In this document: piece by piece, positions 26,918 through 48,208 of the stretch
Position numbering within the stretch: position 1 is the stretch's first letter
Layout of the letters: the number at the start of each line of letters is the position of its first letter
Assembly (NCBI GenBank): GCA_007693585.1
Contig: REDH01000067.1
Span: 1 to 64,000 of the forward strand
Direction of reading: 5' to 3'
Length of the DNA stretch: 64,000 nucleotides
From: Deltaproteobacteria bacterium
GTDB taxonomy: Bacteria > Myxococcota_A > Bradymonadia > REDH01
The notes under the pieces: generated by a model
Databases searched by the model: none
What the model saw: only the letters and a program-made list of their open reading frames with translations
Told to the model about the DNA's origin: nothing
Made by a program: the position numbers and the translations under genes

Positions 26918-29900
26918 TCAGGGACGCTGGCGAACCATCCGCTCCGGCAAGGCACGCGAACGCTCGATCAGGGCCACCGTCCGCTCCGCCGGCGACAACG
27001 CGAGAAACCGATCCTGCGGACCCGCACGACGCCGCTCCGCCGGCTCGAGCGCCGCCACCTCCGCCACCTCCGCCCCCTCGTCCGCCCCCTCGTCCGCCAC
27101 CGCGACAGCTCCCAACCCCCCTCCCGCCTCCTCGGGGTCCTCCACGTCCTCCCCACCGGCCTCGGAGAGCGCCATCGCCGTCCGCAACGGCTCCGCCGTC
27201 ACGAATCGCGGCCGCGACCGCAACCCCTCCTCCAGCTCCCGCTGCGTGATCATCCGCCGCCGCTCGAGACCCCGCATCAGCTGCTGACACTGGCGCCAGA
27301 ACCAGTCCGGAACCTCGCCCCGCTCGCGCTGCGCACTCCGGCGCATCGGCGCCGGAGTGATCGCGCTCAGCCACGTCGCCTCCGCAAGGGTCAGCTCCCG
27401 CGGAGACTTCCCGAAATAATGCTCCGCAGCCTCCACGATCCCGTTCACCCCGGGGCCCCACTCGATCACGTTCAGGTACACTTCCAGAATCCGCTCCTTC
27501 GGCACCGTCCGCGTCATCCAGTACGTGAGAAACAGCTCCTGGACCTTCCGCTCCACCGTGCGATCATGCGTCAACAGCACGTTCTTCACCAACTGCATCG
27601 TGATCGTGGACGCCCCCCGCCGAAATCCCTCCTCCCGATGCCACGCCTCCTCGATCACGCGCCGCACCTGATACCAGTTCACCCCCGTGTTCTCGAAGAA
27701 CCGACCATCCTCCCGATGCAGCTGCATCGCGATCAGCCAGTAGCTGATCTCGTCCAGCGGGGCCCAGCCCTCCCGCTCCGTACGCGACACCGGCGGCGAC
27801 GGCACACCACCCCAACCCTCGCCCCAGTCGCTACGCCGCCGCTCGCCCCCCGCATCCCCGACAGGCTCGAACGCAGGCACCGACAGCGAACGCCGAATCC
27901 GATCGTCCGGGCCCCGAAACACAAAGTCGAACGAACGGTTCAGACGTCCCGGATCCACCGCCTCCGGGATCGACTGCAGGATCACCCCCGCGTCCCGGAA
28001 GTCGTCCACCGTCGGGGCATGGATCCGCATCCTCGCACGACCACCCGGCGGATCACTCGGCTCCAGATCGACCCGGAACTCCAGATCCTGACCAAAACGA
28101 CCCCCCAGCCGCACCCCGTCCAGCGAACTGCGCAACGCCCGCGGAACCGCATCGAACAGATCCTGCGCCGGCTGATCCGGTACCCCGAACGCGATCTCCA
28201 GCCCACGCAGGTGCGGCGCCCGCGTCAGCGACCAGTACAGCACGCTCGGCCGAAGACTGAAGCGGGCGCCGTTGAGACGACCGTCCCCCGACGTCACCCG
28301 AAGATGCCGACCCCCCTCCACCTCCTCCTCCTCGGCCTCCACAACCCACTCGAGATGACCCACATCCAGCGGACTCCCGAGCCGCGAGATCTCCATCCGA
28401 AGGTCGCGCAACGAGACCCGGCCCCGGGCCGTCATCGGCCTCCGACGCTCCGCATCCCGATACGACAGCGACGCCTCCGCCCTCCCCGACGTCGCCACCA
28501 CCCCGGGCGGAAGCGGCAATAACCCCCCCACGGCACCGACATCCACCTCGGCAAGCGACAGGTCGAGCTGCAGGCGCTGCGCCGCATACGCCCACGCAGC
28601 CTCCAGATCCAGCGTCCCGAGCGCTGCCCCCGACCCCCCCTCCCGAAACGTGCCCCCCGCAGCCACGTCGATCTGCATCCGGAACACCCGCAGCGCATAG
28701 CGAAGGCGAGCCTCCTCGAAGACCACGTGACGCATCCCCTCACCCCCCTCCCCGGGGAGCAGCACCTCCACCCGCCCATCCTCGAAATCCACGAACTGCG
28801 GCCAGATCTCGTACCACGGCCGACCCCGGGACAACGCCTCCCAGGCACCGGCCATGCGCCCCGCCTCGTCGTCCCCCTCCGCCTCGTCGTCCCCCTCCGC
28901 CTCGTCGTCCCCCTCCGCCTCGTCGTCCCCGGAGGTGAGATGCCCGCGCGCCAGAAGCTCCACCCAGGGCGACTGCCCCGCATCCACCCGCATCTCCGGC
29001 GACTGCAGCGCCACCCTCGACAGATACAGATCCTCCAGCCGCCTCGGAACCTCGCGAAGGTCCACCTCCAGCACCGGCGTCGAGAACGACAGCGCCTCCT
29101 CGTCCCCGGAGCCCAGTCGCACCGAGAGGCCACTCACCGTGAAGTCCGCGGGCAGCGAAGCCGTCCCCCCCGTGATCCTCGACTCCAACCCCATTCCGCC
29201 CACGACCCCCGTGACGCCGATCGTCTCCTCGTCCGGCACCGAGAAACCAACCGATGCCACCGCCCGATCCTCCCCTCGCGCCTCCACGACAACCCGCGTC
29301 GGCACGTGAAGGACGAGCCCGGTCGCTCCCAGCCCGAGCTCGCCGACAGGACCGGACAGGGCCACCCGGCCACTCCAGCCGCCCGCCTCCTCCGCGTGCT
29401 CCGAATTGCCCAGCCGCCCGTCCAGCAGACCGAATGCGCGGGAACGCCCGTCCAGCAGGTCCGTCCGCACCGTGAACTGATCCACGCGAACCTCGGGCCA
29501 GTCGACCGTCGCACGCTCACGAACGTCCTCGTCCTCGGCCTCCTCCCGCTCCGGGCGGTCGCGGAGCCGGGTCAGCGCATCCTGCCAGGCCCCGAACGAA
29601 CCGTCCGAGGACTGCACATGCACCCAGCCATCCGTCACCGTGACCCGCCGGACCGTCACGTCCGACCGCGATCGGGGAAGTCCGTCGAGCTGCACGTCGA
29701 TCCGATCGATGCACGCGAGCTCGACCCGTGGGGCGCCCGCCGCAAAGAGGCACAGCCCGCGCAGCCCGAGCGCACCACTCCACCCGATCTCGATACCCTC
29801 GATCTCCGGCTCGATCCCCGCGACGGACAGGGCCCGCGTCGCCTCCGCACGGATCCGCTCCGCAAGGAGCGACGGCAGCGCGAGACGCACCACCAGCGCG

Positions 29901-30007
29901 AGCGCCACAAGCACTCCGAGCACGGCCGAGCCGATCACGATCACCCTGCGCAGGCGCCTGCCCTGTGCGGATGGCGGTTCCGTTCCCGCCGGGTCACTGC
30001 CCTTCAA
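26918..30007 (-). CDS. AsmA-like / GT51 peptidoglycan glycosyltransferase fusion 1
   Basis: 1029 residues. Start is TTG at 30007 after GGAGGAG; no better start is visible. One membrane helix (VIVIGSAVLGVLVALALVV), then about 700 residues of beta-rich repeats of AsmA/TamB outline (AGIEPEIEGIEIGWSGALGLRGL, TVDWPEVRVDQFTVRTDLLDG), then a GT51 domain at about 745-935. GT51 motifs: EDGRFFENTGVNW, GASTITMQLVKN, RKVQELFLTYWMTR and KERILEVYLNVIEWGPGVNGI. It should polymerise lipid II glycan strands but has no transpeptidase domain. In motif I the usual His and Asp are Asn (NTGVN), while the catalytic Glu-Asp remains. cutA follows by 12 nt. A second protein of this layout lies at 45701-48208. Confidence 0.88.
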   Translation of the reverse strand: MKGSDPAGTEPPSAQGRRLRRVIVIGSAVLGVLVALALVVRLALPSLLAERIRAEATRALSVAGIEPEIEGIEIGWSGALGLRGLCLFAAGAPRVELACIDRIDVQLDGLPRSRSDVTVRRVTVTDGWVHVQSSDGSFGAWQDALTRLRDRPEREEAEDEDVRERATVDWPEVRVDQFTVRTDLLDGRSRAFGLLDGRLGNSEHAEEAGGWSGRVALSGPVGELGLGATGLVLHVPTRVVVEARGEDRAVASVGFSVPDEETIGVTGVVGGMGLESRITGGTASLPADFTVSGLSVRLGSGDEEALSFSTPVLEVDLREVPRRLEDLYLSRVALQSPEMRVDAGQSPWVELLARGHLTSGDDEAEGDDEAEGDDEAEGDDEAGRMAGAWEALSRGRPWYEIWPQFVDFEDGRVEVLLPGEGGEGMRHVVFEEARLRYALRVFRMQIDVAAGGTFREGGSGAALGTLDLEAAWAYAAQRLQLDLSLAEVDVGAVGGLLPLPPGVVATSGRAEASLSYRDAERRRPMTARGRVSLRDLRMEISRLGSPLDVGHLEWVVEAEEEEVEGGRHLRVTSGDGRLNGARFSLRPSVLYWSLTRAPHLRGLEIAFGVPDQPAQDLFDAVPRALRSSLDGVRLGGRFGQDLEFRVDLEPSDPPGGRARMRIHAPTVDDFRDAGVILQSIPEAVDPGRLNRSFDFVFRGPDDRIRRSLSVPAFEPVGDAGGERRRSDWGEGWGGVPSPPVSRTEREGWAPLDEISYWLIAMQLHREDGRFFENTGVNWYQVRRVIEEAWHREEGFRRGASTITMQLVKNVLLTHDRTVERKVQELFLTYWMTRTVPKERILEVYLNVIEWGPGVNGIVEAAEHYFGKSPRELTLAEATWLSAITPAPMRRSAQRERGEVPDWFWRQCQQLMRGLERRRMITQRELEEGLRSRPRFVTAEPLRTAMALSEAGGEDVEDPEEAGGGLGAVAVADEGADEGAEVAEVAALEPAERRRAGPQDRFLALSPAERTVALIERSRALPERMVRQRP
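28863..28930 (-). repeat. 18-bp coding repeat (GDDEAE)
   Basis: About four near-identical 18-bp units (plus strand CCCTCCGCCTCGTCGTCC) encode acidic (GDDEAE)n inside the AsmA-like part of the GT51 fusion, an acidic loop between beta domains. Identity between units suggests recent expansion. Confidence 0.9.
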
Positions 30008-30195
30008 TGCTCCTCTCCTCCGTCGAGCGCTGCGGAGCCCCCCCGGCGGCGGCTACGCCGACGTTGCGGGATGGGCAGGCTGTGCGTAGCATCGTTTCCC
30101 CCACGCGCAAAGACGCGGAATCATCCGCGCGCGCGCCCGCCCAGGTCACCCGGTCCGGGACCTGCTCCGCCCGACACGCCCACGGAGATGCACCG

Positions 30196-30531
30196 ATGGA
30201 TATCGAGAAGCTCAAGGCCCGCGCACTCGAGAAGGCGATGAAGATCGCCCAGAGTGATTCCGCGCAGCAGATCATGGCCGACGAACGGTTTCAGCGCGCC
30301 TTCGCCCAGGTGTTCGAGTCGTCCATGAAGGCCAGGGACTCCATCGAGAAGACGCGCCGGGACCTCGCCCATCGGTTCAACCTCGCCACCGAGGACGATC
30401 TCCGCGACATGAAGCGCAAGCTCGAACGGCTGGAACGCCGCCTGGAGAGGCAACAGGAGGGCGGAAAGCCACGTCGCGGTCGCCCATCCCGTTCCGAGGC
30501 CGCTCCTCCCGGGGAAGACGAAGACGCCTGA
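30196..30531 (+). CDS. Small phasin-like coiled-coil protein
   Basis: 111 residues, ATG at 30196 with GGAG 9 nt upstream. Highly helical: MDIEKLKARALEKAMKIAQS, a central amphipathic stretch, then LATEDDLRDMKRKLERLERRLE, which resembles the C-terminal coiled coil of polyhydroxyalkanoate-granule phasins (TRxDxDxLxxRxxELExxL). The tail is basic then acidic. No PHA synthase gene is in the window. Real gene by ribosome site and composition; phasin function is a guess. It is divergent from the GT51 fusion. Confidence 0.6.
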   Translation: MDIEKLKARALEKAMKIAQSDSAQQIMADERFQRAFAQVFESSMKARDSIEKTRRDLAHRFNLATEDDLRDMKRKLERLERRLERQQEGGKPRRGRPSRSEAAPPGEDEDA

Positions 30532-30554
30532 ATGCCCGACCTGCCCGCTCGGGC

Positions 30555-32366
30555 TCAGGGCCAGTCATCGTCATCGTCGCCTGCGCCCGGCGGCCAGTCG
30601 TCGTCATCGTCGTCGTCGCCTGCGCCCGGCGGCCAGTCGTCGTCGTCGTCGCCACTTGCGCCCGGCGGGCGGTCGTCGTCCGCGTTGCCGCCCTCTTCCT
30701 CGTCGTCGTCCAGCATGTCTCGGAAGCTGGAGAGGTCCTGGAGCCTCACGGCACCGGACTGGACCTTGCGGAAGTCCTCGAGGAGGTCCGCGACCGTCTC
30801 GTACGCCGACTCCTGAAGGGCCTGGCGCTGAAGGTCCTGCTGCGCGCGCCGGGTGAGTTCCTCCATGGTCAGCGGCCTTCCGGGTTCGCCGGCGTCCGGC
30901 TCGCCTTCCTCCTCGTCGTCGTCCATGCGTGCCACTCCGGCGAGGAACCGGACGCTCTCCGGCGCGCGGAGCGTGTTCATGGCGATCCGCCGTTCGGGGA
31001 AGGGCACGTGGAAGCCGTTGCCGTTCATCCAGCTCACGGGTCCGAGAGAGACCGTCGGGACGTAGGTGACGATCATGAGGGCCCCGAGCATGAGCACGAG
31101 GAACGGCAGGGTGGATCGGATGATGCTGCCCAGGGACTCGCGGAAGATGGTGCTGGAGACGAAGAGGTTGAGACCGAGCGGCGGCGTCAGGTAGCCGATC
31201 TCGAGGTTCACGATGAAGATGATCGCGAGGTGGATCGGATGGATGCCCAGCTCGAACGCGATGGGCGCGAGGAGCGGCACGAGGATGATGATCGCGGACA
31301 GGATGTCCATGAAGCAGCCGACGATCAGCAGCAGGATGTTGACCATCACGAGGAACGCGAGCGGACTGAGTTCCCAGGCGAGGAGCAGCTCGACGGCGTG
31401 CTCGGCGACCTGGGCCAGCTCCAGGTACTTGTTGAAGCCCTGGGCGAGGGCGATGATGATCAGCAGGCTGCCGATGAGGACGGTGCTGTCGCTGAGGATG
31501 GGGCCGAGCCGATCGGTCGTCAGGCTCCGGTGGAGGAAGAGCTCGACGACCAGCGCGTACACGACGCTGACGGCGGCGGCCTGGGTGGGGGTGAAGATGC
31601 CGCTGTAGATTCCGCCGAGGATGATCACCGGGAGCATCAGGGCCCAGAACCCTTCGCGGGTGGCCCGGTACAGCCGGCCGAGGTCGACCGGGCGGGTGGC
31701 CGTGCCGGCGCGTCTCCCCACGATGATGGAGTAACCGGCGAAGATGAGGCCGATGAGGAGGCCCGGTCCAAGGCCTGCGAGGAACAGGTCGATGAGACCG
31801 AGCGGACGGTCCGGGCTGGCGATGGTGTAGTTGGGCGGGTCCGCCAGGCGGGTGGGATCGATGATCTCGTAGACGATCATCGGGATGGAGGGCGGGATCA
31901 GGATGCCGAGGGAGCCCGCGGCCGTGACCAGCCCGAAGGAGAAGCGTTTGGGGTAGCCCTCCCGCAGCATGGCGGGCACCATGATGGTGCCGATGGCGAT
32001 CACGGTGACCGGGGAAGAACCGCTGATGGCGGCGAAGAAGATGCAGGCGAAGACGGCGCTGACCGCGAGACCGCCGGGGAGCCAGCAGAAGGCCTCGCGC
32101 GCGACGTTGATGAGCCGTCGGGCGATGTCGCCTTCGCTCATGATGGCGCCGGCGATGACGAAGAAGGGGATGGCGAGGAGCACTTCCTTCTCGGCCAGGC
32201 TGAGCGTCATCTCGATGATGGTCGTCAGATCCTGGAACTGGCTGAACACGCCGGTGGCGAGCAGGAGGAAGGCAGCGACGCCGCCGATCAGGACGTAGAG
32301 CGGCTGGGCCGTTCCGATGGCGACAAGCAGGATGCCGAGCAGGCCGAGGAGCACCGGCGTGTTCAT
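30555..32366 (-). CDS. dctM: TRAP transporter large permease (DctM) with acidic repeat tail
   Basis: 603 residues; DctM proteins are usually about 430. Residues 1-440 are the normal multi-helix permease (IPFFVIAGAIMSEG, AISGSSPVTVIAIGTIMVPAM, ILIPPSIPMIVYEIID, EIGYLTPPLGLNLFV). The extra 160 residues are soluble: a helical region (PLTMEELTRRAQQDLQRQALQ) and a Gly/Asp/Trp/Pro repeat ending at the stop. Being after the last helix, the tail's side of the membrane cannot be settled from sequence. ATG at 32366 overlaps the dctQ stop by 4 nt. It imports the ligand delivered by DctP using an ion gradient. Confidence 0.92.
   Translation of the reverse strand: MNTPVLLGLLGILLVAIGTAQPLYVLIGGVAAFLLLATGVFSQFQDLTTIIEMTLSLAEKEVLLAIPFFVIAGAIMSEGDIARRLINVAREAFCWLPGGLAVSAVFACIFFAAISGSSPVTVIAIGTIMVPAMLREGYPKRFSFGLVTAAGSLGILIPPSIPMIVYEIIDPTRLADPPNYTIASPDRPLGLIDLFLAGLGPGLLIGLIFAGYSIIVGRRAGTATRPVDLGRLYRATREGFWALMLPVIILGGIYSGIFTPTQAAAVSVVYALVVELFLHRSLTTDRLGPILSDSTVLIGSLLIIIALAQGFNKYLELAQVAEHAVELLLAWELSPLAFLVMVNILLLIVGCFMDILSAIIILVPLLAPIAFELGIHPIHLAIIFIVNLEIGYLTPPLGLNLFVSSTIFRESLGSIIRSTLPFLVLMLGALMIVTYVPTVSLGPVSWMNGNGFHVPFPERRIAMNTLRAPESVRFLAGVARMDDDEEEGEPDAGEPGRPLTMEELTRRAQQDLQRQALQESAYETVADLLEDFRKVQSGAVRLQDLSSFRDMLDDDEEEGGNADDDRPPGASGDDDDDWPPGAGDDDDDDDWPPGAGDDDDDWP
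30558..30690 (-). repeat. Coding repeat of the DctM tail (DDDDDWPPGAG)
   Basis: Three to four imperfect units of about 30-36 bp encode runs of Asp followed by WPPGAG or RPPGAS. Unit length varies with the number of GAC/GAT codons, so both unit count and Asp-run length can change in frame. Confidence 0.9.
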
Positions 32367-33343
32367 GACGCCACCTCCTCGCGCGGGGTGGTGCGTCGTT
32401 CGCGGGAGAGCAGGAGGGCCTCGAGCGCGTGGACGATGGCCTGGCCGTGGAACCGCGCGGTGATCAGCATCAGGCTGAACGGGATGGCGAGGGTCTTGAC
32501 CCACTCGGGGATCTCGCCCGGGGTGGTGGCCTGACCCAGGCGCCGCTGGAAGTAGAGGATGGCGAGCCAGGTGAACGCGGCGGTCACCAGTCCGGCCACG
32601 AGGGTGCTCAGGGCGTTGAACGCGTGCAGGTGCTTCTCGGGGATCGCCTTCCGGATGGCGTCGACGCGGAGGTGCCGGTTGGCGAACGTCGCCATGGAGG
32701 CGCCGAGGAACGCCATCCAGAGCATGAGGAAGAGGGCGAAGCGCAGCGCCCATGAGTAGCCTTCGGGGGCGTGCAGGGCAACGTAGAGGCCGAGGAGGCC
32801 GCCGGCGGAGATCGCCGCGAGCCGTCCTGCCCGTCCTGCGTCGAGGGCGGGAGATCCGACGGGCCTGGGTCGGTTGGCCTCCCGGGCGAGCAGCCAGGCC
32901 CAGGTGAGGAGTGCGAGCCCGGCGCAGATCGCGGAGCTGGGCAGCCAGAGCATCCCCATGGACAGCAGGAGCGTCGCGACGACTCCGAGGGCCGTCAGTG
33001 CCCGCTGCAGGCCGGGGATCCGGCCGACGAGGGGGTGGGAGCGCCACGCGCTGGCGAAGAGCGCGGCGACGATGATCGTGACCGCGGCGATCGGCCACAG
33101 GTCGAGGAAGACGGCGTCGTCGGTGACGATCCGGCGCCAGGTGCCACGCTGGGCGACGAGGAACCGGAAGTAGACGTCGAGGAAGACGACCGCGCTCATG
33201 ACCATGAGCGCGGTGATCACGAACGTGCGTTCGACCTCGTGGATGGCGCGGTTGAGACGGCGCAGGGCGCGGAAGGCTGCGAATCGCTCGTAGACGAGCC
33301 GGGGAGCGTCGTCGCTGCTGGTCTCAAGCGGGGAGTGGGCCAT
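32363..33343 (-). CDS. dctQ: TRAP transporter small permease (DctQ), enlarged
   Basis: 326 residues, against about 160-200 for typical DctQ with four helices. I count about eight hydrophobic segments (near 40, 80, 115, 140, 180, 205, 252 and 290). The outer parts resemble DctQ; the middle (about 105-200, GLQRALTALGVVATLLLSMGML to LGLYVALHAP) looks like an insertion of extra helices. It couples DctP to DctM in the membrane. It lies 29 nt after dctP and overlaps dctM by ATGA. Confidence 0.8.
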   Translation of the reverse strand: MAHSPLETSSDDAPRLVYERFAAFRALRRLNRAIHEVERTFVITALMVMSAVVFLDVYFRFLVAQRGTWRRIVTDDAVFLDLWPIAAVTIIVAALFASAWRSHPLVGRIPGLQRALTALGVVATLLLSMGMLWLPSSAICAGLALLTWAWLLAREANRPRPVGSPALDAGRAGRLAAISAGGLLGLYVALHAPEGYSWALRFALFLMLWMAFLGASMATFANRHLRVDAIRKAIPEKHLHAFNALSTLVAGLVTAAFTWLAILYFQRRLGQATTPGEIPEWVKTLAIPFSLMLITARFHGQAIVHALEALLLSRERRTTPREEVAS

Positions 33344-33372
33344 GCGAGCCGGGAGCCTTCTCGGGGGGGCGT

Positions 33373-34392: not shown

Positions 34393-34439
34393 GGGGCCTC
34401 CAGGGCTGATGGGTGGGACGGGTGACCCGGAGCGAGCCG

Positions 34440-38045: not shown

Positions 38046-38097
38046 CACCGGACCGACCCGCCCCCGGGGCGTCCGCCCGGGACGAGACCCGAACCGC

Positions 38098-38328
38098 ATG
38101 GACGCCATCCCACCGATCCCGCCCGCCTTGCCGCTGCACCTGCTCGCGCTCGTGCTCGTCCTCGGCAGCATCCTCGTCGCCCTCCCGTACCTGAAGCGAG
38201 GGCTGCTCGGAAGAAGGGTGGACCTCGCCGCGTGGTTCTTCGAGGAGGACGGCAGCCTGACCGTCATCCCGCTGCGTCCTCGCGCCGAGCCAGAAGGGCC
38301 GGAAGCCGAGGATCCCCGGACGGACTGA
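38098..38328 (+). CDS. Small single-helix membrane protein
   Basis: 76 residues with one membrane helix (LPLHLLALVLVLGSILVALPYL) followed by a positively charged stretch and an acidic tail. It begins 52 nt after lolA. Its 3' end overlaps the convergent rqcH gene by 65 nt, which is long; an internal shorter version is impossible because the stop is shared. Coding signal is moderate. Confidence 0.55.
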   Translation: MDAIPPIPPALPLHLLALVLVLGSILVALPYLKRGLLGRRVDLAAWFFEEDGSLTVIPLRPRAEPEGPEAEDPRTD

Positions 38329-39730
38329 CCTCCACCGTCCGCCCCCCGGCCACGAGCACCCGGCCCGGAGGAAGATCGCGCGCCTTGCGCACATGACGGC
38401 GCTCCGTGACCCGGACGCCGACCACCGTGTCGCTGCGCCCACGGCTGTGATGCGCGGCCAGCAGCGCCGCCTCCTCGACGACCTCGGGACGAACCGTCGC
38501 GCCCCGCGGACGCCGAATCACCACGTGCGCACCCGCCCAGTCCTCCGCGTGCAGCCACAGGTCGTGTCCATGGGCGATCTGCACCGTGAGCGTGTCGTTG
38601 TCCCGCCCCCCCCGACCCACGAGGATCGGGGTGCCATCGGAGGCCCGATAGCGGATGTACGGCAGGCGGGGAGCCGGGGCGGCCCGGCGGGCACCCCGCG
38701 CCCGGCCCCGTGCCCGGCCGGGCAGCGCCTCGTCGATCCGTCCGAGCAGGTCCGGCAGGGCGCCCCAGTCGCCGGAGTCCTCGACCCGCGCGAGCTGCTC
38801 CTCGAGGCCAGCGAACGTCCCCACCCGCCCCTCGGCCTCTTCGAGGCGCCGGAGCACCGTGTCGGCACCCCGCTCGAGGCGCCGGGCCTGGTGATAGGCG
38901 CGCGCGATCTGGGCCTCGAGATCCAGGGCGGGGTCGAGCGGCAGGATCACCTCCGGGCTGTCGGGCTGCGCCCAGTCCTGCACGGTGACGGAGCGGTCGC
39001 CCCGCCGCACGCGACCGCGGGCGGTCTGGAGGAGGTCGGCGCGATGACGGAGCGCCGGCGCCTCGTCGACGCGCTCGAGATCGCGGAGCAGGGCGTCGCG
39101 CAGCCGCTCGGCGCGCCGACGCTCGCGGCGCAGGGCGTGGCGCCGCCGATCGATGGCCGTCGTGCGCTCGATGTCCTCGGCACGCCGGGCGTAGTGGGCG
39201 TCGATGGCCTCGGCGAGAGCCGCGTCGGGCACGGGGAAGCGGTCGCGGTGATCCGGCGCGGCCCGGGTGGATGGGGGGCTCGGGGGGACGTGGAGGGCAC
39301 CGGTGGCACGTCGTCCGGCGTGGTCCCCGAGGACGTGTCCCTGCGCGTCGAGCAGGAGGACGGTCGCGTCCCGGCCGAGGAGGGCGATGACGAGGCTCGC
39401 GCGCTCGTCCCCGCGGCGGGTGTGGAGCCGGATCCAGCGGTCGTCGGTGGGGCGCTCGACGTCGATGACGCGGGCGCCGGTGAGGTGCTTGCGCAGGAGC
39501 ATGACGAAGGCGCTCGGCTGCGGAGTGCTGGCCAGGCGCCGGGTGGTGGGGTGGACGCGGCACAGGGGGGAGCGCAGGGAGACGAGCCACTCGCGGGTGG
39601 TCGGCGCGCGGTGGAGGGTGAGCAGGAGCGTGTGGTCATCGGGAGCGCGGACGCGCTGGATGCGCGCGCCGGCGAGCTCATCGGCGTGCGCGTCGAGGAC
39701 GCGCTGGAACTCGCGGGTGGAGAGGCTCAT
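38264..39730 (-). CDS. rqcH: RqcH/NFACT ribosome quality-control protein
   Basis: 488 residues. N-terminal NFACT-N domain (STREFQRVLDAHADELAGARI) with the functionally important Asp-Arg pair at D97/R98 (TDDRW), middle coiled coil (RRHALRRERRRAERLRDALL), and C-terminal NFACT-R (DLWLHAEDWAGAHVVIRRP). In Bacillus RqcH recruits tRNA-Ala to stalled 50S subunits and adds C-terminal alanine tails; the Asp-Arg pair is needed for this. It is shorter than Bacillus RqcH (about 570) mainly in the coiled coil. ATG at 39730 overlaps the upstream stop by ATGA. Confidence 0.88.
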   Translation of the reverse strand: MSLSTREFQRVLDAHADELAGARIQRVRAPDDHTLLLTLHRAPTTREWLVSLRSPLCRVHPTTRRLASTPQPSAFVMLLRKHLTGARVIDVERPTDDRWIRLHTRRGDERASLVIALLGRDATVLLLDAQGHVLGDHAGRRATGALHVPPSPPSTRAAPDHRDRFPVPDAALAEAIDAHYARRAEDIERTTAIDRRRHALRRERRRAERLRDALLRDLERVDEAPALRHRADLLQTARGRVRRGDRSVTVQDWAQPDSPEVILPLDPALDLEAQIARAYHQARRLERGADTVLRRLEEAEGRVGTFAGLEEQLARVEDSGDWGALPDLLGRIDEALPGRARGRARGARRAAPAPRLPYIRYRASDGTPILVGRGGRDNDTLTVQIAHGHDLWLHAEDWAGAHVVIRRPRGATVRPEVVEEAALLAAHHSRGRSDTVVGVRVTERRHVRKARDLPPGRVLVAGGRTVEVSPSGDPRLPALLARREDAAG

Positions 39731-41043
39731 CGCAGCAGGGCGGTCCAGCCCTCGGAGGCCGGTCTCCAGTGCACGGAGCGGCCGTGGTTCTCGCCGAGGG
39801 GGACGGGCTGCCAGGGGCCGGGAGAGTCGGGCAGGGCGCGGGCGAGCTGGTCGCGGTCGTCGTCGGAGAGGTCGTCCGGGGCGAGCACGCGGAGGCCGAC
39901 GCTGCCGCGATCGGTGGACAGGGTGACGTTGGCCCGGGCGCCGGGGCCTCCGGGGATTCGCCGCGCGACCTCCTGGTGGAGGACGCGCTCGATGCCGTCG
40001 GTGTGGAAGGTGAAGAGGGAGAGGATGTCGACCTCGACGCCGAGGTGCGTCTCCGTGTGCTGGACGACGAGGTACTCGGCGGGGTCGAGGGGGAGGGCAA
40101 CGTGCTCGAAGCGGGAGATGCGCTCGGGGTGTGCGGCGGACAGGGGAAACTCCACGAGGTCCCAGGGGAGTCCCGGCCCGTAGAGCACGAGGAATCGGCC
40201 GAGGGCGATGGCGCGCTTTCGTCTCGGGTCTCCGGTGAACCGTGCCCAGGCTTCGGCGTCGGGGGTGGCGTTGGCGGTGAGCTGGAGGGCTTCGGCGATG
40301 TGGGGGATACGGGGGTGGGCGTCGGGGAAGTGGAGGGTGCCGAGGGACTGGAGCCGTCGGGGGTGAAAGGGGGCGGTGGCGATGCTGACCTCCCGTTCGC
40401 GCTCGGTGTCGTGGTCCCAGTCGTGCTGGATGGCGGCGAAGGGGACGGGGCCGAAGCCCATGGTGTGTCCGGCGACGTTTCGGGGGATGGCGGCCTCCAG
40501 GAAGAAGCCGTGCTCGCGGTAGGAGACCTCGGCGCGGGCGCCGGGGACGGGCTGGCCGCGGTCGGGTCCATTCTGCCAGACGGGGGTGCTGGTGCCGCCG
40601 TCGTGGACCGGCCAGACGGGGATCTCGACGATGCGGATGTCCGCCGCGGTGGCGTCCACGCTGTCGGGGGCGAAGACGAGGGCGAAGCGGTCGCCGCCCC
40701 GTCTGCGGTCCGGGGCGACGATGTGGTTGTCCCGGGCCACGACGGCGAAATAGAGGTGGTTCTCGCCGACCCTGCACCACAGCATGAAGGAGGCGTCCGC
40801 GGGGCCGGTCCAGTCGTACTCCGGCTCGCCGGCGACGAGACGGGTGACGCGGGGCGTGGGCGGGACCTCTTCCTCCCAGTCGGTCTGGAATCCGTCGATG
40901 ACGACCTGGGTGCGGTAGTCGGAGATGCAGGGAACGGCGTCGCCCTGCTGTCCGGGCAGTCCCGGGTGGTCCGCGGCGAGTCCGGGACGGGCCGGTCCGG
41001 CGAACAGGATCAGGGAGGCGAGGAGGGGGGTGAGGCGCGTCAT
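39727..41043 (-). CDS. Secreted CBM9-like protein
   Basis: 438 residues. Signal peptide (LLASLILFAGPARPGLAAD). Residues 35-210 have the CBM9/DOMON-like pattern: VVIDGFQTDWEE near the start, WTGPADASFMLWCRVGENHLYFAVVARDNHIV, and FFLEAAIP. The remaining 220 residues are beta-rich with no family I recognise. CBM9-like domains bind sugars or haem in exported proteins. It overlaps rqcH by 4 nt although their roles seem unrelated, so rqcH expression is probably tied to this gene's promoter. ATG at 41043. Confidence 0.7.
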   Translation of the reverse strand: MTRLTPLLASLILFAGPARPGLAADHPGLPGQQGDAVPCISDYRTQVVIDGFQTDWEEEVPPTPRVTRLVAGEPEYDWTGPADASFMLWCRVGENHLYFAVVARDNHIVAPDRRRGGDRFALVFAPDSVDATAADIRIVEIPVWPVHDGGTSTPVWQNGPDRGQPVPGARAEVSYREHGFFLEAAIPRNVAGHTMGFGPVPFAAIQHDWDHDTEREREVSIATAPFHPRRLQSLGTLHFPDAHPRIPHIAEALQLTANATPDAEAWARFTGDPRRKRAIALGRFLVLYGPGLPWDLVEFPLSAAHPERISRFEHVALPLDPAEYLVVQHTETHLGVEVDILSLFTFHTDGIERVLHQEVARRIPGGPGARANVTLSTDRGSVGLRVLAPDDLSDDDRDQLARALPDSPGPWQPVPLGENHGRSVHWRPASEGWTALLR

Positions 41044-41304: not shown

Positions 41305-41583
41305 TTGAGCAGAACCACGCCGGGAGCCATCATTCACCGGAACCTGTCGATCATCGCCTGTGACACCTCGGCGACGCTCCAGGAGACCCTGCACCACCTG
41401 GCGGACGTGGAGGCGGAGCTGGTCCGGATCGGGGAGCGGCACATCGCGTTGCCGTCCTCGCATCTGGACGAGGTGCTCTCGCGCCTTCGCGCCACGGGAC
41501 AGTTCCCGCGGCTGGTGGGTGCGCCTCCCGGCAGCGGGGAGGCCGAGGAAGGCGCGATCGCGGACGACGGGGAGGAATCATGA
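41305..41583 (+). CDS. Small conserved-looking protein, TTG start
   Basis: 92 residues. TTG at 41305 lies 7 nt after GGAGG and no in-frame ATG exists nearby. Sequence: a beta start (AIIHRNLSIIACDTSATLQETL), a helical middle (ADVEAELVRIGERHIALP, SSHLDEVLSRLRATGQFPRLVG) and an acidic tail. Its stop overlaps the next ATG (ATGA), so it is translationally coupled with the XPB-N-like gene and probably a partner. I do not recognise a family. Confidence 0.7.
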   Translation: MSRTTPGAIIHRNLSIIACDTSATLQETLHHLADVEAELVRIGERHIALPSSHLDEVLSRLRATGQFPRLVGAPPGSGEAEEGAIADDGEES

Positions 41584-43760
41584 GCAATGCGGCCGACGTG
41601 CTGCGATCGGTGTACGGCGAAGCCTCCCTCGGACGGCTGGCCTCCGCTCACGGGCTGGATGGGGATCCGTACGAGGCCCTGGCCGGGCTGTTCGGCGACC
41701 GGAAGGTGCGTTCGCGCATCGTGGCGGCGCTCAGTGAGCAGGAGCGCCAGCTCCTCGCCTTCGCCCACCAGATCGGCCGCCGCCTGCGCGGCGATCGGCT
41801 GAAGAAGCGCTGGGTGCTGCACGGCTACGACGGGTTCGAGGACCTGATCATGCCGCTGGTCGATCAGGGTCTCGTGATCGTCGGCAACACACAGGCCCGG
41901 GAGCCGGTGGCCCTCGAGCACGCGCTGGAGAACGGGATCATGCAGCAGTGGCTGCAGGTGACACCGGGATTCGGGGAGCTGGCCGGTGATCCGCCCGAGC
42001 GGCGCGAGGTGGTCGAGGGGGTGACCGACGAAACCACCCCGACGCTGCGCCGGCGGCCCCTGGTGGTGGAGTTCAACCTCCTGAGCCTGTGCAAGTTCAT
42101 CGAGCGCCACGCCATCCGGCTCAACCGCGACGGCAGCCCGCACCGATCCGACCTCAAGGCGCTCGCCCCCTGGATCATCGATCGTCCCATCGGCAGCGAC
42201 CGGCCGGACACGACCCCCGATCCCCTCCGCGCGGACGGCTGGGACGTGATGATCTTCCTGCTGTCCCTCGCCGAGGGCCTCGGGCTGATCCGGCGACAGG
42301 GCGAGACCCTGCGCATCGGAAAGGACCCCGCCAGCTACTTCCAGAAGGAGATGGCGCAGCGGGTCCCGCTCCTCTTCCGGGCCTTCGAGCAGATGCGCGC
42401 CTGGAGCGAACTCGACGCCGCCGAGTGGAGCACCGACGACGAAGCCCCGGCCACCGGACAGGGCCACGGGGGGTTCCCGGAGAACGGCGGCCACGGCGCC
42501 GCGCTCGCCGGCTGCCGAAGCACCGTGCTGGCCGGCCTCCGACGACTGCACCTCAACGACTGGTTCGACATCGACGAGACGGTCGAAACCATCTTCGGGC
42601 TCGAACGCGGCTACCTCGAATCCTCGCTCCCCAACGGCGACGGCGGGGAGCCCGAAGTGCGCCGGTTCATCGAAGCCTTCATCACCATCGCGCTCCCCCA
42701 CCTGGGCGCCGTCGAACTCGGCACCGGCTCCAACGGCCAGCGCAGGGCCCGGTTCACCCCCTTCGGCGCCACCCAGCTCGGCGGCGACTGCCCCGAACCG
42801 GCGAGCGGCCGCGGCGCCCTCATCGTCGAGCCGAGCTTCGAACTCACCTGCTTCATCGACCAGGCCACGCTGCCCCTGCTCTACGATCTCTCCCGGTTCG
42901 CCGAAGTCGTGGACACCAGCGAGCGGGTCGTGCGCTACCGCATCGACGGCGAGAGCGCGCAGTACGCCTACGCCCGCGGCTATACCGCCGAGCGGATCAT
43001 CGGCGTCCTCGAGGAATCCTCCGAACGCGAGGTGCCCCCCGCTGTCCGCTTCGCCCTCGACGACTGGGAGCGACTCCACCGGCGCGTCACGGTCTTCGTG
43101 CACGGAGACATCATCGCAGCCGGCGAGAAGACCGACCCCGAGGTCGTCCAGTCCGGCGTGCGCTTCGCCGTCGACCGGGAAGGCGACATCGAGAGCATCG
43201 ACATCGAACACACCTTCGTCTCCAGCGGGCACGGAGACGCCCTCGACCGGGCCCTCACCGCACACGCCCCCCGCGTCATCGACTACTGCGGTCCGATCGT
43301 CCCCACCCTGCGCTGGGTCGACGACGTGCGCGTGCTCGCCCCCATCGGCGGCACCGACCTGCGCACCCTCGCGCGGCTCCAGCGCCTCGCCATCGACGAG
43401 GGCGACGGGGTGCACCGCATCGACCCCGACACCATCCTCCAGCACTTCCCCGAAGGCGACGGCTACGCCTATCTCGTCCAGGTGCTCCGCGACGGCCTCG
43501 CCAGCGGCCTCTCCGCCGAGCGGGAGCTCACCCTCAAGGAGCTCCTCGGACAGGCGGTCACCGGAACCATCGATGACATGAAGGTCCTCCTCGTCGAGAG
43601 CGACGAGGACGGCGAGCGCGTCGCCCGCGTGGCCGACCTCGACGGATGCATCGAGGCCCGACTCGGACCCCGCGCCTTCCACGTGAAGCCCGACTGCATC
43701 GGCCGCGTCGTGGACGTCCTCGATCGCCTCGGCGTCCGGATCGAGGACCGCACACCTTGA
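41580..43760 (+). CDS. XPB/Ssl2 N-domain-like (Helicase_C_3) protein
   Basis: 726 residues without Walker motifs. Residues about 410-500 match the XPB/Ssl2 helicase-associated domain (GALIVEPSFELTCF, LLYDLSRFAEVVDTSERVVRYRIDGES, RGYTAERIIGVLEESSEREVPPAVRFALDDW). Residues 1-350 form helical repeats beginning VLRSVYGEASLGRLASAHGL and likely winged-helix units (ALSEQERQLLAFAHQIG). A C-terminal domain follows (TVFVHGDIIAAGEKTD). In other bacteria such proteins often neighbour an XPB helicase gene; none is here. Cytoplasmic, probably nucleic-acid related. Sandwiched between a 92-residue protein and a symporter by 4-nt overlaps. Confidence 0.75.
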   Translation: MSNAADVLRSVYGEASLGRLASAHGLDGDPYEALAGLFGDRKVRSRIVAALSEQERQLLAFAHQIGRRLRGDRLKKRWVLHGYDGFEDLIMPLVDQGLVIVGNTQAREPVALEHALENGIMQQWLQVTPGFGELAGDPPERREVVEGVTDETTPTLRRRPLVVEFNLLSLCKFIERHAIRLNRDGSPHRSDLKALAPWIIDRPIGSDRPDTTPDPLRADGWDVMIFLLSLAEGLGLIRRQGETLRIGKDPASYFQKEMAQRVPLLFRAFEQMRAWSELDAAEWSTDDEAPATGQGHGGFPENGGHGAALAGCRSTVLAGLRRLHLNDWFDIDETVETIFGLERGYLESSLPNGDGGEPEVRRFIEAFITIALPHLGAVELGTGSNGQRRARFTPFGATQLGGDCPEPASGRGALIVEPSFELTCFIDQATLPLLYDLSRFAEVVDTSERVVRYRIDGESAQYAYARGYTAERIIGVLEESSEREVPPAVRFALDDWERLHRRVTVFVHGDIIAAGEKTDPEVVQSGVRFAVDREGDIESIDIEHTFVSSGHGDALDRALTAHAPRVIDYCGPIVPTLRWVDDVRVLAPIGGTDLRTLARLQRLAIDEGDGVHRIDPDTILQHFPEGDGYAYLVQVLRDGLASGLSAERELTLKELLGQAVTGTIDDMKVLLVESDEDGERVARVADLDGCIEARLGPRAFHVKPDCIGRVVDVLDRLGVRIEDRTP

Positions 43761-45049
43761 CCCGCGAGAAGACCGGGGACCGGGACCGGCGCCGTCTGCC
43801 CCTCCACGGACAGATCGCCATCGCCATGGCCCTCGCACTCGGACTCGGTGGGCTCGCCCGCGCAACCGGCATCGAGGCCCATCCCGCGATCGTCGCCCCC
43901 ATCCAGTTCGTCGGGGAACTCTTCCTGCGACTGCTCAAGATGATCGTCGTGCCCCTCGTGCTCACGTCGATCGTCGTCGGCATCGCCTCCCTCAACGTCC
44001 GGGCCGTCGGGCGCATCGGCGGAAGAACCCTCGGCTTCTACCTGCTCTCCACCTCCCTCGCCGTCCTCACGGGCCTGCTCGCCATCCGGATCACCCGGCC
44101 CGGACGCGGCGCCGATCTCGCCGCCGCCAACGCGCCCACCATCGAGCCCGAACCCCTGCTCGACATCCTCCTGCGCATCGTCCCGGAGAACCCGTTCGCC
44201 TCGATGGTCGAGACCTTCGATCTCCTCAGCGTCATCTTCGTCGGTGTGCTCGTCGGCCTCGCCATCTCCGCCGTCGGCCCGAAGGCCCGCCCCCTGCACG
44301 ACCTCATGGAGGCCCTGCACGCCGTCACCTTCCGCATCACCGACTGGGTCATCCGCCTGACCCCCTACGGCGTGTTTGCGCTGATCGCCCTCGTGGTGCT
44401 CGACACCGGCATCGGGGTGCTGCTCTCGCTCGTCGGGTACTTCCTGACAGTGGCCTTCGCGCTCGCCGTCCACGGACTGCTCGGTCTGCCCCTCCTGCTG
44501 CACCTCCTGGGCAGGGTGCCGCCCCGCCCCTTCGCCCGCGCGATGGCGCCCGCCCTGCTCACCGCCTTCTCCACCGCGAGCTCCGCAGCCACGCTGCCCG
44601 TCACCATGGAGTCCATCGAGAAGCGGGCAGGGGTCGAGCGCCGCGTCCACAGCTTCGTGCTGCCGATCGGCGCCACGGTGAACATGGACGGGACCGCCCT
44701 GTATCAGGCCATCGCCGCCGTCTTCGTGGCCCAGGCCTTCGGCATCGACCTGACCCTCGGCCAGCAGGTCGTCGTCTTCCTCACCGCCACGCTGGCCGCC
44801 ATCGGTGCCGCCGGGGTGCCCGGCGCCGGCCTCGTCACCATGGTCATCGTCTTCCAGGCGGTCGGCATCCCCCTCGAGGGCATCGGGCTGATCGTGGCCG
44901 TGGACCGCCTGCTCGACATGATGCGCACCAGCGTCAACGTCTGGGGCGACGCGTGCGCCGCCGCGGTGGTCGGGCGGGCCGAAGGCGCCATGGACCTCTC
45001 GGTGCTGATGGACGGCGGATCGTCCCCGAACGGACCCGCGACACCGTGA
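43757..45049 (+). CDS. Dicarboxylate/amino acid:cation symporter (DAACS family)
   Basis: 430 residues if the TTG at 43757 is used; that codon overlaps the upstream TGA (TTGA). An ATG start inside the first helix would truncate it. Eight hydrophobic segments plus re-entrant loops. FSTASSAATLPVT is the serine-rich HP1 motif and LPIGATVNMDGTALYQ contains the NMDGT motif of helix 7; GVPGAGLVTM is HP2 and VDRLLDMMRTSVNVWGD is helix 8 with the substrate-binding Asp/Arg region (DxxRTxxNVxGD). It imports glutamate, aspartate or C4-dicarboxylates with H+ or Na+. Confidence 0.9.
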   Translation: MTREKTGDRDRRRLPLHGQIAIAMALALGLGGLARATGIEAHPAIVAPIQFVGELFLRLLKMIVVPLVLTSIVVGIASLNVRAVGRIGGRTLGFYLLSTSLAVLTGLLAIRITRPGRGADLAAANAPTIEPEPLLDILLRIVPENPFASMVETFDLLSVIFVGVLVGLAISAVGPKARPLHDLMEALHAVTFRITDWVIRLTPYGVFALIALVVLDTGIGVLLSLVGYFLTVAFALAVHGLLGLPLLLHLLGRVPPRPFARAMAPALLTAFSTASSAATLPVTMESIEKRAGVERRVHSFVLPIGATVNMDGTALYQAIAAVFVAQAFGIDLTLGQQVVVFLTATLAAIGAAGVPGAGLVTMVIVFQAVGIPLEGIGLIVAVDRLLDMMRTSVNVWGDACAAAVVGRAEGAMDLSVLMDGGSSPNGPATP

Positions 45050-45121
45050 TCGGGCGCCCCGTTCGCGCTGTGCGGATGGCGAGAGGCATGCCTCCGGCCG
45101 AGTCTCCGCCCCGGCGACCGT

Positions 45122-45141
45122 GCACCGCTTTCGCGCGGTGC
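45122..45141. terminator. Hairpin between convergent genes
   Basis: GCACCGC (45122-45128), loop TTTCGC, GCGGTGC (45135-45141): a perfect 7-bp stem between the symporter stop (45049) and the convergent lipoprotein stop (45197). No T run follows on either strand. Confidence 0.4.
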
Positions 45142-45196
45142 GGAGGACGGTAGGGACATCCCCGAACGAGACCCGCCCCGCTGATCGGGTTCCGCT

Positions 45197-45637
45197 TCAG
45201 CGATGGTGCTGCGAGGAGGGGTAGGGGGATCGCCGGTCGAAGCCGAGGAAGGGCTGCGTCTGGGGGCGCGGCGCGGCGAGACCGGCGCACTGCATCACCT
45301 CGATGCTCCGGGTCCATCGGCACGATCCCTCGACGCAGCCGCACTGGCCGGACGGGACCGTGGCCAGGCACATGCCGACCTCGGTCACGCTGCAGACCGC
45401 GGCGGTCTCGGCCGGAGCGCACAGGCCGCCGGTGCAACCACCCGGCACGCAGTCCGCATCCGTCTCGCACAGCCCGAACTCCCACGCCGGGATGTGCGTC
45501 CGGTCGGGGAGCAGGGCCACGGGAGGGGCGGAGCGCCCGGGGTCGGACGAGCCCGCATTGACGACGGGCGCCGGGCCCGTGGCGCAACCGGCGAAGAGTG
45601 CGGATAGAAATGCGAACGCAGCGATTTTTTGACCCAT
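45197..45637 (-). CDS. Small cysteine-rich lipoprotein
   Basis: 146 residues. MGQKIAAFAFLSALFAGC is a signal peptide with lipidated Cys18. After a flexible segment the domain CETDADCVPGGCTGGLCAP...CSVTEVGMCLATVPSGQCGCVEGSC carries eight cysteines within about 45 residues, and one more follows later. The CxxDxDCxxGGCxxGxC pattern recalls the N-terminal halves of the Kazal-protein modules at the left end of the window. Extracytoplasmic; function unknown. The ATG at 45637 is the only start that keeps the signal peptide. Confidence 0.8.
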   Translation of the reverse strand: MGQKIAAFAFLSALFAGCATGPAPVVNAGSSDPGRSAPPVALLPDRTHIPAWEFGLCETDADCVPGGCTGGLCAPAETAAVCSVTEVGMCLATVPSGQCGCVEGSCRWTRSIEVMQCAGLAAPRPQTQPFLGFDRRSPYPSSQHHR

Positions 45638-45700
45638 CTGGGACGCGCCTGTAGCCCGTGGACTCGGTGCCTGCACCCGCAGCACCCAAGGGTCGCCAGT

Positions 45701-48208
45701 ATGCAGAAATGCTCCCGTGACACAACCGGCGTCGTTGGCTCGGCCACGACGTCGTCCGGCCTGTCCGCCAACGCACGGCGCGGGATGATCCTCGCCGCCG
45801 TGCTGGCGCTGTTCGCGCTGCACCCCCTCGCGATGCGTGTCGTGGTGGTGCCCCTGGTCGAGGCCCGGGGCGCCGCGCTGGGGATCGAGGTCGACGTGGC
45901 CGGCGTGCGGATGGGCTGGCCGCTGGACATCGTCGTCTCCGGCGTCGAGCTGCGCCCCGGGGACGAGGCGAACCGGCGCATGGTGCCGGCCGTCCACGTG
46001 CCCGAAGTTCGCCTCCGGTGGGCGCCGCACCGGAGCCTGTCCGCCGTGCGCAGCGGGCTCTCGTGGCGCGAGGGTCTGGCGCTGCGGCTCGACGCGCCCG
46101 AGGTCGTGCTGTCCGTCGACGTCGTCTCCGGCGGGGACCTGGCCTGGTTCCGCTCGCGCCGGGAACTCGCCGTCGCCGCGTCGCCCGGTGGCGGCGATGA
46201 CCAGGCGCGCACCGCGGCCGGTGCCCTGGACCGCTGGCCGGAGGTGCGCGTGCAGGGGGGCTTCGTGACCCTCGACGACCCGTCCGGTCTCCTGCCCGCG
46301 GTCGGCATCCGCATCGAGGAGCTCTGGCTCGCTCCGCCCTCGCGCCCCCCACGGCGGTTCGCCAGCGGCTCGCCCCCGGTGGCGCGGAGGGACGTGACCG
46401 GGATGGTGCGCGTGGAGGGCCTCGGCCGCGCGCTGCTTCGCGGCCGGCTCGGCGATGGCGATGACCGGAGCCTGGAAGTCCGCCTCGTCCAGGACAACGA
46501 CCTCGCACTGCTCCTGCCCGCCCGATGGCGGCCGCCGGCCAGCGCCGACCTCATGCTCGGCGCGGTCCGGTTCGAGGCACCCGCGGATCTCGTCGTCCAG
46601 CCCGTCCGGGGGCGGTCGCTCGGGCTCGCTCCGGCCGGCCCGACCGGCGGGGTGATCGACGCCGTCTGGCTCCACGAGCTGCGGTTCGGCGTGCGCCCCC
46701 ACGGGCTCGAGGTCCTCGTCACGGAGGCGCGTGTGCGCGCCCTCGGCCCCGCCGGCCCGGCCGGCGCCCAGCCGGCCCGCCTGATGCGGATCCCGGAGGT
46801 GCGCCTCGTCACGCCCTGGGACGAGGGCGGGGGCACCCTGGCGTTCGGAATCCTCGACGAGTTCGACCGCCTGCTCGAGGGCACCGTGACCTTCGACGAG
46901 GCCCACGAACCCACGCAGGTGGAGCTGCTCGCCGGCCACGTCTCCCTCGAGTCCTTCAGCCCGCTTCTGCACCTGCCCGGCGGGATCCGTATCGAGGGGG
47001 GGCTGCTCGACGGCGCGCTGGCCTGGCAGCGGTCGGACGGGGCCTGGTGGGCCAGCGCCCGGGGCCTCCTGCTGGACGGCCGCCTGCACGCACCACCCCT
47101 CGCGCCGGGGCCGCTCTCCGACGTGCGCCTCGAGTGGTCGGGCCGCATCCTCGGCGAGGACGCGGGAGGACGGGTCTCGGCCGAGGACGCGTGGGTCGTC
47201 GTCGGCGAGATCCCGATCCGCCTGGGCTTCGGCCGCGAGACGATGGAGACCGGGACCCGCTGGACGGCGACGATGGAGCTGGCGCCGGTGGAGGCCGAGC
47301 GCGTTCGCCGGTCGCTTCCGATCGGGTTCGCAGAGCGGCTCCAGGCGATGCGGTTCGAAGGTACCGTCGGCGTGAACGCTTCGCTCGACGTGGCCCCCGG
47401 CACCGACGAACCGGCGACCTTCGACGTCCAGGTCCTCGACGAGGACCTCCGGGTGGTCGACTTCGGCCCGCTGACGGCGCCCTCCCACTTCGCGGGCCCC
47501 TTCGAAGCACGGATGGTGTCCGCAGCCGGAGAGCCGCTCCGGCTGGACGCGACCGGTAGCTCCTGGTTCTCCCTCGGTGGCTCGGAGTGGCCCCGTCTCG
47601 CGCGGATCGTCATGGCCGCGGAGGACGACCGGTTCCTGATGCACGAGGGCTTCGACGTGCGGGCCCTGGGGGCGGCGATCAAGGCCAACCTCGAGGCGGG
47701 CAGCGTGGTCCGCGGGGGCAGCACGATCTCGCAGCAGGTCGTGAAGAACCTCTACACCGACAGCCGGCGGACGCTGGACCGGAAGATCGAGGAGCTGCTC
47801 CTCACCCGCGAGCTCGAGGCGGCGCTCTCCAAGACCCGGATCCTCGAGATCTACCTGAACATGGCCCACCTCGGTCCCGGTGTGCACGGGGTGGAGGATG
47901 CCGCGAGGATGTGGTTCGGGCGAAGCGCCCCCGAACTCGCCCTCCTCGAGGGCACGTTCCTCGCAGCGATCCTCCCCGCACCGGAGCGCTTCGGCCGCGC
48001 CTACGCCGCCGGCGAGCTGCCGGAGTGCCGGTGGGAGAAGATGCGCAACATCCTGCACAACCTGCACCGGGCCGGGGTCATCGACGACGACGCGCATCGC
48101 GCCGCCCGCCACCAGCTCCGGCAGCGCCGCATCAGCCGCCATCCCCCGCCGTCGCCCGCAGCGCTGGATGGCCGCGCCTCCGCCCCTCCGAGCGCACGGC
48201 CGCTCTAG
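45701..48208 (+). CDS. AsmA-like / GT51 peptidoglycan glycosyltransferase fusion 2
   Basis: 835 residues from the ATG at 45701 (AAGGG upstream); ATG at 45785 is an alternative. One membrane helix (MILAAVLALFALHPLAMRV), then AsmA-like beta repeats to about 600 (LGIEVDVAGVRMGWPLDIVVSGVEL, VRVQGGFVTLDDPSG), then GT51 at about 625-800: EDDRFLMHEGFD, GGSTISQQVVKN, DRKIEELLLTRELE and KTRILEIYLNMAHLGPGVHGV. Here motif I is canonical (His and Asp kept), unlike fusion 1. No transpeptidase domain. Divergent from the Cys-rich lipoprotein gene by 63 nt. Confidence 0.88.
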   Translation: MQKCSRDTTGVVGSATTSSGLSANARRGMILAAVLALFALHPLAMRVVVVPLVEARGAALGIEVDVAGVRMGWPLDIVVSGVELRPGDEANRRMVPAVHVPEVRLRWAPHRSLSAVRSGLSWREGLALRLDAPEVVLSVDVVSGGDLAWFRSRRELAVAASPGGGDDQARTAAGALDRWPEVRVQGGFVTLDDPSGLLPAVGIRIEELWLAPPSRPPRRFASGSPPVARRDVTGMVRVEGLGRALLRGRLGDGDDRSLEVRLVQDNDLALLLPARWRPPASADLMLGAVRFEAPADLVVQPVRGRSLGLAPAGPTGGVIDAVWLHELRFGVRPHGLEVLVTEARVRALGPAGPAGAQPARLMRIPEVRLVTPWDEGGGTLAFGILDEFDRLLEGTVTFDEAHEPTQVELLAGHVSLESFSPLLHLPGGIRIEGGLLDGALAWQRSDGAWWASARGLLLDGRLHAPPLAPGPLSDVRLEWSGRILGEDAGGRVSAEDAWVVVGEIPIRLGFGRETMETGTRWTATMELAPVEAERVRRSLPIGFAERLQAMRFEGTVGVNASLDVAPGTDEPATFDVQVLDEDLRVVDFGPLTAPSHFAGPFEARMVSAAGEPLRLDATGSSWFSLGGSEWPRLARIVMAAEDDRFLMHEGFDVRALGAAIKANLEAGSVVRGGSTISQQVVKNLYTDSRRTLDRKIEELLLTRELEAALSKTRILEIYLNMAHLGPGVHGVEDAARMWFGRSAPELALLEGTFLAAILPAPERFGRAYAAGELPECRWEKMRNILHNLHRAGVIDDDAHRAARHQLRQRRISRHPPPSPAALDGRASAPPSARPL

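Follow-up and report, generated by a model that had tools for sequence, protein, structure and literature searches.

Two genes of the window, i.e., the entire analyzed stretch of 64,000 nucleotides from a bradymonadial genome of the phylum Myxococcota, raise the question of why a GT51 domain would be attached to a module that resembles proteins of the AsmA/TamB superfamily, and what such a fusion might do. These genes, designated P0001 and P0002, are listed with their domains and neighbors in Table 1. Both open reading frames are uninterrupted and coding-like, and the TTG start of P0001 is plausible, with a good ribosome-binding site (GGAGGAGAGGAGCA) ahead of the start, the sequence preceding this start being GGAGGAGAGGAG. 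Orthologs of P0001 within the same family align over their full length at 30–34% identity. The two proteins have a common layout, in which a single N-terminal membrane helix is followed by a beta-rich module and a C-terminal GT51 domain. The first-pass annotation had described this layout without a transpeptidase domain and with a beta region of 600–700 residues; the layout was recovered in both proteins, and the length applies to the module of P0001 (~650 residues) and not to that of P0002 (~540 residues). The Pfam family PF00912 (Transgly) is matched by residues 743–895 of P0001 (153.6 bits) and residues 632–769 of P0002 (150.3 bits), in each case against a curated cut-off of 27, and the Pfam scan detected no transpeptidase domain (PF00905) in either protein. 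The acidic repeat of P0001 is modelled with a pLDDT of ~40 and is possibly a length-variable spot.

Table 1. Positions in the window of the two AsmA-GT51 fusion genes, their component features and their gene neighbors
Feature	Position	Strand	Basis
P0001, group A AsmA-GT51 fusion, 1029 aa	26918..30007	minus	Open frame, coding bias, TTG start, same-family orthologs
Sole membrane helix of P0001, ~residues 19-47	29867..29953	minus	Hydropathy peak 3.0; helix 15-62 in model
AsmA/TamB-type beta module of P0001, ~residues 65-710	27878..29815	minus	Pfam in group A, beta-rich model, Foldseek
18-bp perfect tandem repeat, 3.9 copies, giving an acidic GDDEAE linker within the AsmA module of P0001	28861..28930	minus	Tandem Repeats Finder
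GT51 domain of P0001, ~residues 743-935	27203..27781	minus	PF00912, E 4.8e-45; GT51 crystal structures
First catalytic Glu of P0001, E766, motif EDxxF	27710..27712	minus	E in 86/87 fusion proteins
Second catalytic Glu of P0001, E824, motif RKxxE	27536..27538	minus	E in 87/87 fusion proteins
P0002, group B AsmA-GT51 fusion, 835 aa	45701..48208	plus	Open frame; orthologs in same family and class
Sole membrane helix of P0002, ~residues 28-50	45782..45850	plus	Hydropathy
AsmA-type beta module of P0002, ~residues 60-600	45878..47500	plus	Profile alignment to P0001 module; DUF748 in relatives
GT51 domain of P0002, ~residues 625-815	47573..48145	plus	PF00912, E 4.8e-44; invariant columns
CutA1 gene 10 nt downstream of P0001, then PAS-GGDEF-EAL gene	23701..26908	minus	
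Helicase_C_3 gene and SDF dicarboxylate symporter, upstream of group B	41580..45049	plus	
Alanine dehydrogenase, ECF sigma, zf-HC2 anti-sigma-like, OmpR-type regulator, histidine kinase, PhoU	48374..55340	plus	

The GT51 domains of both window proteins contain two catalytic glutamates together with the GxSTxxQQxxKN, RKxxE and ILExYLN motifs. In P0002 the glutamates correspond to E641 and E698, which are invariant across group B, while the RG(A/G)ST..Q..KN motif is intact in the fusions; alignment of 87 fusion proteins shows almost no variation in the S/T/Q/K/N binding motif, in RK or in ExYxN. Because the catalytic glutamates and binding motifs are so highly conserved, the GT51 domain of the fusions is most likely an active lipid II polymerase. 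It was also considered whether the domain might be inactive or act on another polyprenyl-linked polymer, in which case the protein would serve as a sensor of lipid II or as some other polymerase. Certain substitutions are in line with this alternative, i.e., N replaces H in the EDxxFxxH motif of P0001 and one of the 87 proteins lacks the first catalytic glutamate, and the presence of multiple paralogs per genome leaves room for specialization; the near invariance of both glutamates and of the binding motifs nevertheless makes it very unlikely.

Of the known GT51 proteins, MtgA/Mgt (TIGR02070) shares with the fusions the single N-terminal helix, a GT51 domain without transpeptidase and the catalytic motifs. 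E. coli MtgA is a protein of 242 aa in which GT51 lies close after the helix, whereas in the fusions 400–900 residues of AsmA-type module separate the two. The MtgA model scored 125.4 bits for P0001 and 153.1 bits for P0002, below its threshold of 182.65, and the NCBIfam MtgA and PBP1A models match the GT51 part only and fall under their cut-offs in both proteins. Class A PBPs (PBP1a, PBP1b, PbpC) likewise share GT51, yet at the N-terminal rather than the C-terminal end, and differ from the fusions with respect to the transpeptidase, which the latter lack. Members of the AsmA/TamB superfamily (AsmA, YhdP, TamB, YdbH, DUF748) have the N-terminal signal anchor, a detectable sequence relation and probably the repeating beta-groove in common with the fusions, but not the GT51 enzyme at the C-terminal end. 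Such a fusion was not found in the consulted portions of the superfamily papers PMC4494059, PMC11014939 and PMC8593681, and a search of the open-access literature did not return a description of an AsmA-GT51 protein. The sub-threshold MtgA and PBP1A scores and the lack of a published description argue against this being a long-characterized transglycosylase family, an outcome that the first-pass annotation had allowed for. Each half of the protein belongs to an established family, and what is new is their combination, together with how old and how abundant it is.

The affiliation of the beta-rich module was assessed using single sequences, family profiles and controls. Taken alone, P0001 yields a weak, sub-threshold Pfam match to DUF748 (residues 14–163, E 4.3e-7) and P0002 no named N-terminal domain, both window proteins being below the Pfam cut-offs for AsmA-type families; a PDB sequence search with the AsmA module also returned no match. 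Such weak single-sequence matches could indicate that the likeness to AsmA is spurious, as might arise wherever a GC-rich genome encodes beta-rich sequence of low complexity. This explanation is contradicted by profile tests with shuffled and unrelated controls, by Pfam matches in the relatives of P0001 and by the fold matches of its model, and is thus highly improbable. When each of 34 aligned group A relatives was scanned with Pfam, DUF748 was matched in every one (best 1.6e-26), AsmA in 19, YhdP in seven and YdbH in four; group B, for which 20 relatives were aligned, is more diverged, with DUF748 in five (best 6e-4), and one fusion (L117) has a YdbH match above the curated cut-off. DUF748 has previously been linked to TamB and AsmA, and so placed within the AsmA superfamily, in passages of PMC4494059. 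Against E. coli proteins, the group A module profile returned AsmA (2.3e-10), YhdP (1.4e-5) and TamB (0.0019), all of which outrank ten unrelated controls, while YdbH (0.33) was indistinguishable from these controls. Judged from these profile comparisons, the module is a member of the AsmA/TamB superfamily, in agreement with what had been suspected of the middle region from the DNA itself.

The AlphaFold model of P0001, built from 34 sequences and with a mean pLDDT of 76, comprises a helix (residues 15–62), ~25 to 30 strands extending to residue 710 and a mainly helical GT51 domain, with pLDDT values mostly above 85 in the residue blocks of 400–650. Foldseek searches against the PDB with this model retrieved the bridge-like lipid transfer protein LPD-3 (1.6e-10) and a fragment of Vps13 (5.2e-5), in addition to GT51 crystal structures (TMt up to 0.85). 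The LPD-3 and Vps13 matches have low TM-scores, as may be expected of a flexible repeat, and support the fold class of the P0001 module, although the groove geometry is not thereby proven. The P0002 model has a pLDDT of 61.5, is weakest in its N-terminal half and finds significant matches to GT51 structures only; owing to this weak model, the AsmA assignment of P0002 is based on homology to P0001 and its group. Structure prediction, which had been suggested as a check for an AsmA-type groove, thus gave a resemblance to AsmA-type lipid-bridge proteins for P0001 and not for P0002. The alternation of polar and hydrophobic residues along the strands exceeds that of shuffled sequences in P0001 (10/2000) and is marginal in P0002 (101/2000).

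The paralogy of P0001 and P0002, which the first-pass annotation had asserted, was corroborated by the modules alone: following removal of GT51, those of groups A and B align by hhalign with 99.8% probability (E 5.5e-29, 526 columns) and their C-terminal halves at 4.3e-21, compared with a probability of at most 0.1% for five column-shuffled controls. A third group, composed of C193 from the window's genome, L045 and relatives, aligns to the group A module with 99.7% probability (E 8.1e-26). P0001 and P0002 are placed apart in the class-wide GT51 tree, each among its own relatives from the same family, the placement of P0002 being poorly supported, and the duplication would therefore be older than the family. 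On sequence grounds, the two are genuine paralogs drawn from two of at least three old groups. Of note, another genome of the same family encodes a tandem pair of group-C-like AsmA-GT51 fusions (L039:4615-9715).

The layout is not peculiar to the window or its organism, being present in each of the 20 genomes sampled from the class and in ~65–69 of the 104 sampled from the phylum, where six of the 69 have short frames and are less certain. The phylum count was made with junction profile A3, which covers the last part of the AsmA module together with GT51, a genome being counted upon one match running from position 64 or before to beyond position 290. Each of the 66 GT51-bearing frames fetched from the class has GT51 at the C-terminal end, after roughly 400–1000 residues, and in nearly all the one membrane helix that is predicted lies close to the N-terminus. 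The AsmA module is also present in 18 of 20 loci from other families of the phylum; the phylum-level frames L124 and L126 gave no AsmA match. The GT51 of L126 (670-4410, minus) groups with E. coli MtgA and forms the C-terminus of a 1247-residue frame, which may be a chance frame or another fusion. Another locus, L118 (782-5896, minus), contains a 1705-residue frame that ends in AsmA-GT51 and matches DUF748 only from residue 1035, representing either a much longer protein or a chance frame upstream.

Beyond the phylum, a tblastn search of a plasmid collection returned mostly class A PBPs and a fusion from Parabacteroides distasonis (Bacteroidota; WP_121956505.1, 652 aa), annotated only as ‘biosynthetic peptidoglycan transglycosylase’; when contigs were searched with P0001 by itself, the sole match was a clostridial GT51. 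Compared with the group A module profile, the first 430 residues of the Parabacteroides protein give 3.9e-28 (best of 200 shuffles, 0.15), and Pfam detects DUF748 (1.1e-5) ahead of GT51. It possesses the helix, AsmA-type module and GT51 of the window proteins, from which it differs in its shorter module and in its phylum. The corresponding Parabacteroides ‘plasmid’ (L127, NZ_OY725779.1) is 375 kb in size, carries thiC and housekeeping-type genes, and may be a mislabelled chromosomal piece. The AsmA-GT51 junction is alignable across both phyla, including an invariant proline ahead of the last AsmA strands, and no second membrane segment was detected near GT51, down to Parabacteroides. A single joining event long ago, followed by vertical descent or transfer, is more likely than several independent ones. 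This is beyond what the GT51 tree by itself can demonstrate, as it is too short to decide whether all fusions form a single clade: its deep forks are open, and constraining the fusions to one clade gives a p-AU of 0.08, by which such a clade is neither demonstrated nor rejected. From these alignments and counts, AsmA-GT51 is seen to be an ancient protein family that is present in multiple copies throughout Myxococcota and extends to a relative in Bacteroidota.

The window's genome (4.97 Mb, 97.7% complete) contains five GT51 genes, i.e., those encoding one class A PBP, P0001, P0002, the fusion C193 and C134. The latter, a GT51-only protein of 597 aa, was rejected as a fusion, its N-terminal part being without detectable relation. 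The group A and B genes of sister genera within this family lie on either side of a block comprising alanine dehydrogenase, sigma, anti-sigma and two-component genes; in the window this block comes after group B and runs on into PhoU, with group A located 16 kb away. Upstream of group B, the helicase and symporter genes occur in the same order in a second family of the class (L056). The CutA1 and PAS-GGDEF-EAL genes are probably in one operon with P0001. In other families, group A precedes a conserved gene, followed by MoxR, DUF58 and BatA-like genes; this conserved gene (L051:3740-5824, minus; L047:3073-5223; L050:6708-8639) encodes 640–720 aa, shows ~30% identity between families and has no usable Pfam match. 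Among the neighbors of the fusions, none names a function or points to lipid transport. A tie to phosphate control, based on the adjoining PhoU and two-component genes, was considered and judged mere proximity, and a link to alanine metabolism via the adjoining alanine dehydrogenase, being unsupported, was not retained.

Elsewhere in the window, an Asp/Glu racemase gene (8787-9632, minus), probably that of the glutamate racemase MurI by its sequence start, represents a wall-precursor gene, while the gene at 55517-57472 (plus) encodes three consecutive thioredoxin/DsbA-type domains behind a lipoprotein-like signal. An NFACT-domain (RqcH-like) gene is located at 38264-40780 (minus); the opposite-strand frame at 38393-40183, which was the choice of the coding filter, has no Pfam match and was set aside as probably spurious.

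As regards function, we tentatively propose that the fusions may be membrane-anchored peptidoglycan glycan polymerases, in which the AsmA groove shelters or feeds the polyprenyl-linked substrate and distances GT51 from its sole anchor. The N-terminal helix would be seated in the inner membrane, the AsmA-type repeating beta-groove would extend from this helix into the periplasm, and the conserved junction would fix GT51 at the far end of the groove, which would thereby set its height above the membrane. Most likely, the groove would shelter undecaprenyl tails, either those of lipid II or those of growing strands, or feed them to GT51. The fusions themselves would have no cross-linking activity and cross-links would come from other enzymes; the transpeptidases of this genome are encoded elsewhere than in the fusions. 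The architecture, the AsmA-superfamily membership, the intact GT51 motifs and the conserved junction are the supported parts of this mechanism; catalytic activity, the lipid in the groove, the height, the partners and the position of the groove between the inner membrane and GT51, along with the lipid-handling or envelope-spanning role suggested in the first-pass annotation, are parts that we infer. Handling of substrate or product is the most economical reading because a lipid-tail groove is attached to an enzyme whose substrates carry C55 tails. To our knowledge, no AsmA-type protein carries polyprenyl-linked sugars, which counts against the lipid-feeding reading.

Canonical GT51 enzymes act at the inner-membrane surface, where their substrate is already present, and a lipid conduit would thus be unneeded. 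This favors a second reading, which is quite possible and nearly as likely as substrate or product handling, namely that the AsmA module is a mere rigid spacer or docking arm that sets the height of GT51 or binds partners, its groove being without lipid. A spacer would also accord with the wide differences among families in module sequence and length, GT51 being preceded by about 390 to 920 residues, and with the tolerance of an acidic repeat insert in P0001, but AsmA-superfamily features and an amphipathic strand pattern are kept beyond a spacer's needs and the junction is conserved across phyla.

Relevant dimensions are provided in sections of PMC11014939, according to which TamB (1259 aa) has a predicted length of 17.8 nm, the periplasm spans ~26 nm and the wall lies ~10 nm from the outer membrane; the same sections cite the cross-linking of phospholipids in the YhdP groove (Cooper et al. 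2023). Scaled in proportion from TamB, the two modules would be ~8–10 nm long, i.e., short of the outer membrane and en route to the wall. A polymerase-linked lipid bridge is conceivable, if unlikely, whereby the groove would draw lipid II by its C55 tail from the inner membrane to GT51 at the far end, strands would be made near the sacculus and not at the membrane surface, and paralogs would be specialized by groove length. Also unlikely is that the module moves phospholipids toward the outer membrane in the manner of YhdP, TamB and YdbH, with GT51 coupling wall and outer-membrane growth at one site. The module is related to these three proteins, which support outer-membrane lipid homeostasis as stated in passages of PMC8593681; its grooves are, however, approximately half the length of that of TamB, GT51 occupies the end that would face the outer membrane, and two TamB-type proteins are already encoded in the genome.

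Returning to the preferred reading of substrate or product handling by a membrane-anchored polymerase, if the groove handles lipid II, the receipt and release of polyprenyl-linked substrate by wall polymerases would become directly testable, and if the module is an arm only, it still represents a way of placing such an enzyme that has not been described. Of the five GT51 proteins encoded by the genome from which the window derives, four are without transpeptidase and three of these are AsmA-tethered, making this the commonest GT51 form there, hidden, also in a gut Bacteroidota species, under labels such as that of the Parabacteroides protein. Within one polypeptide, the fusion brings together the fields of bridge-like lipid transfer and cell-wall synthesis, and it suggests that a wall-building enzyme is positioned or supplied in a manner not previously described.
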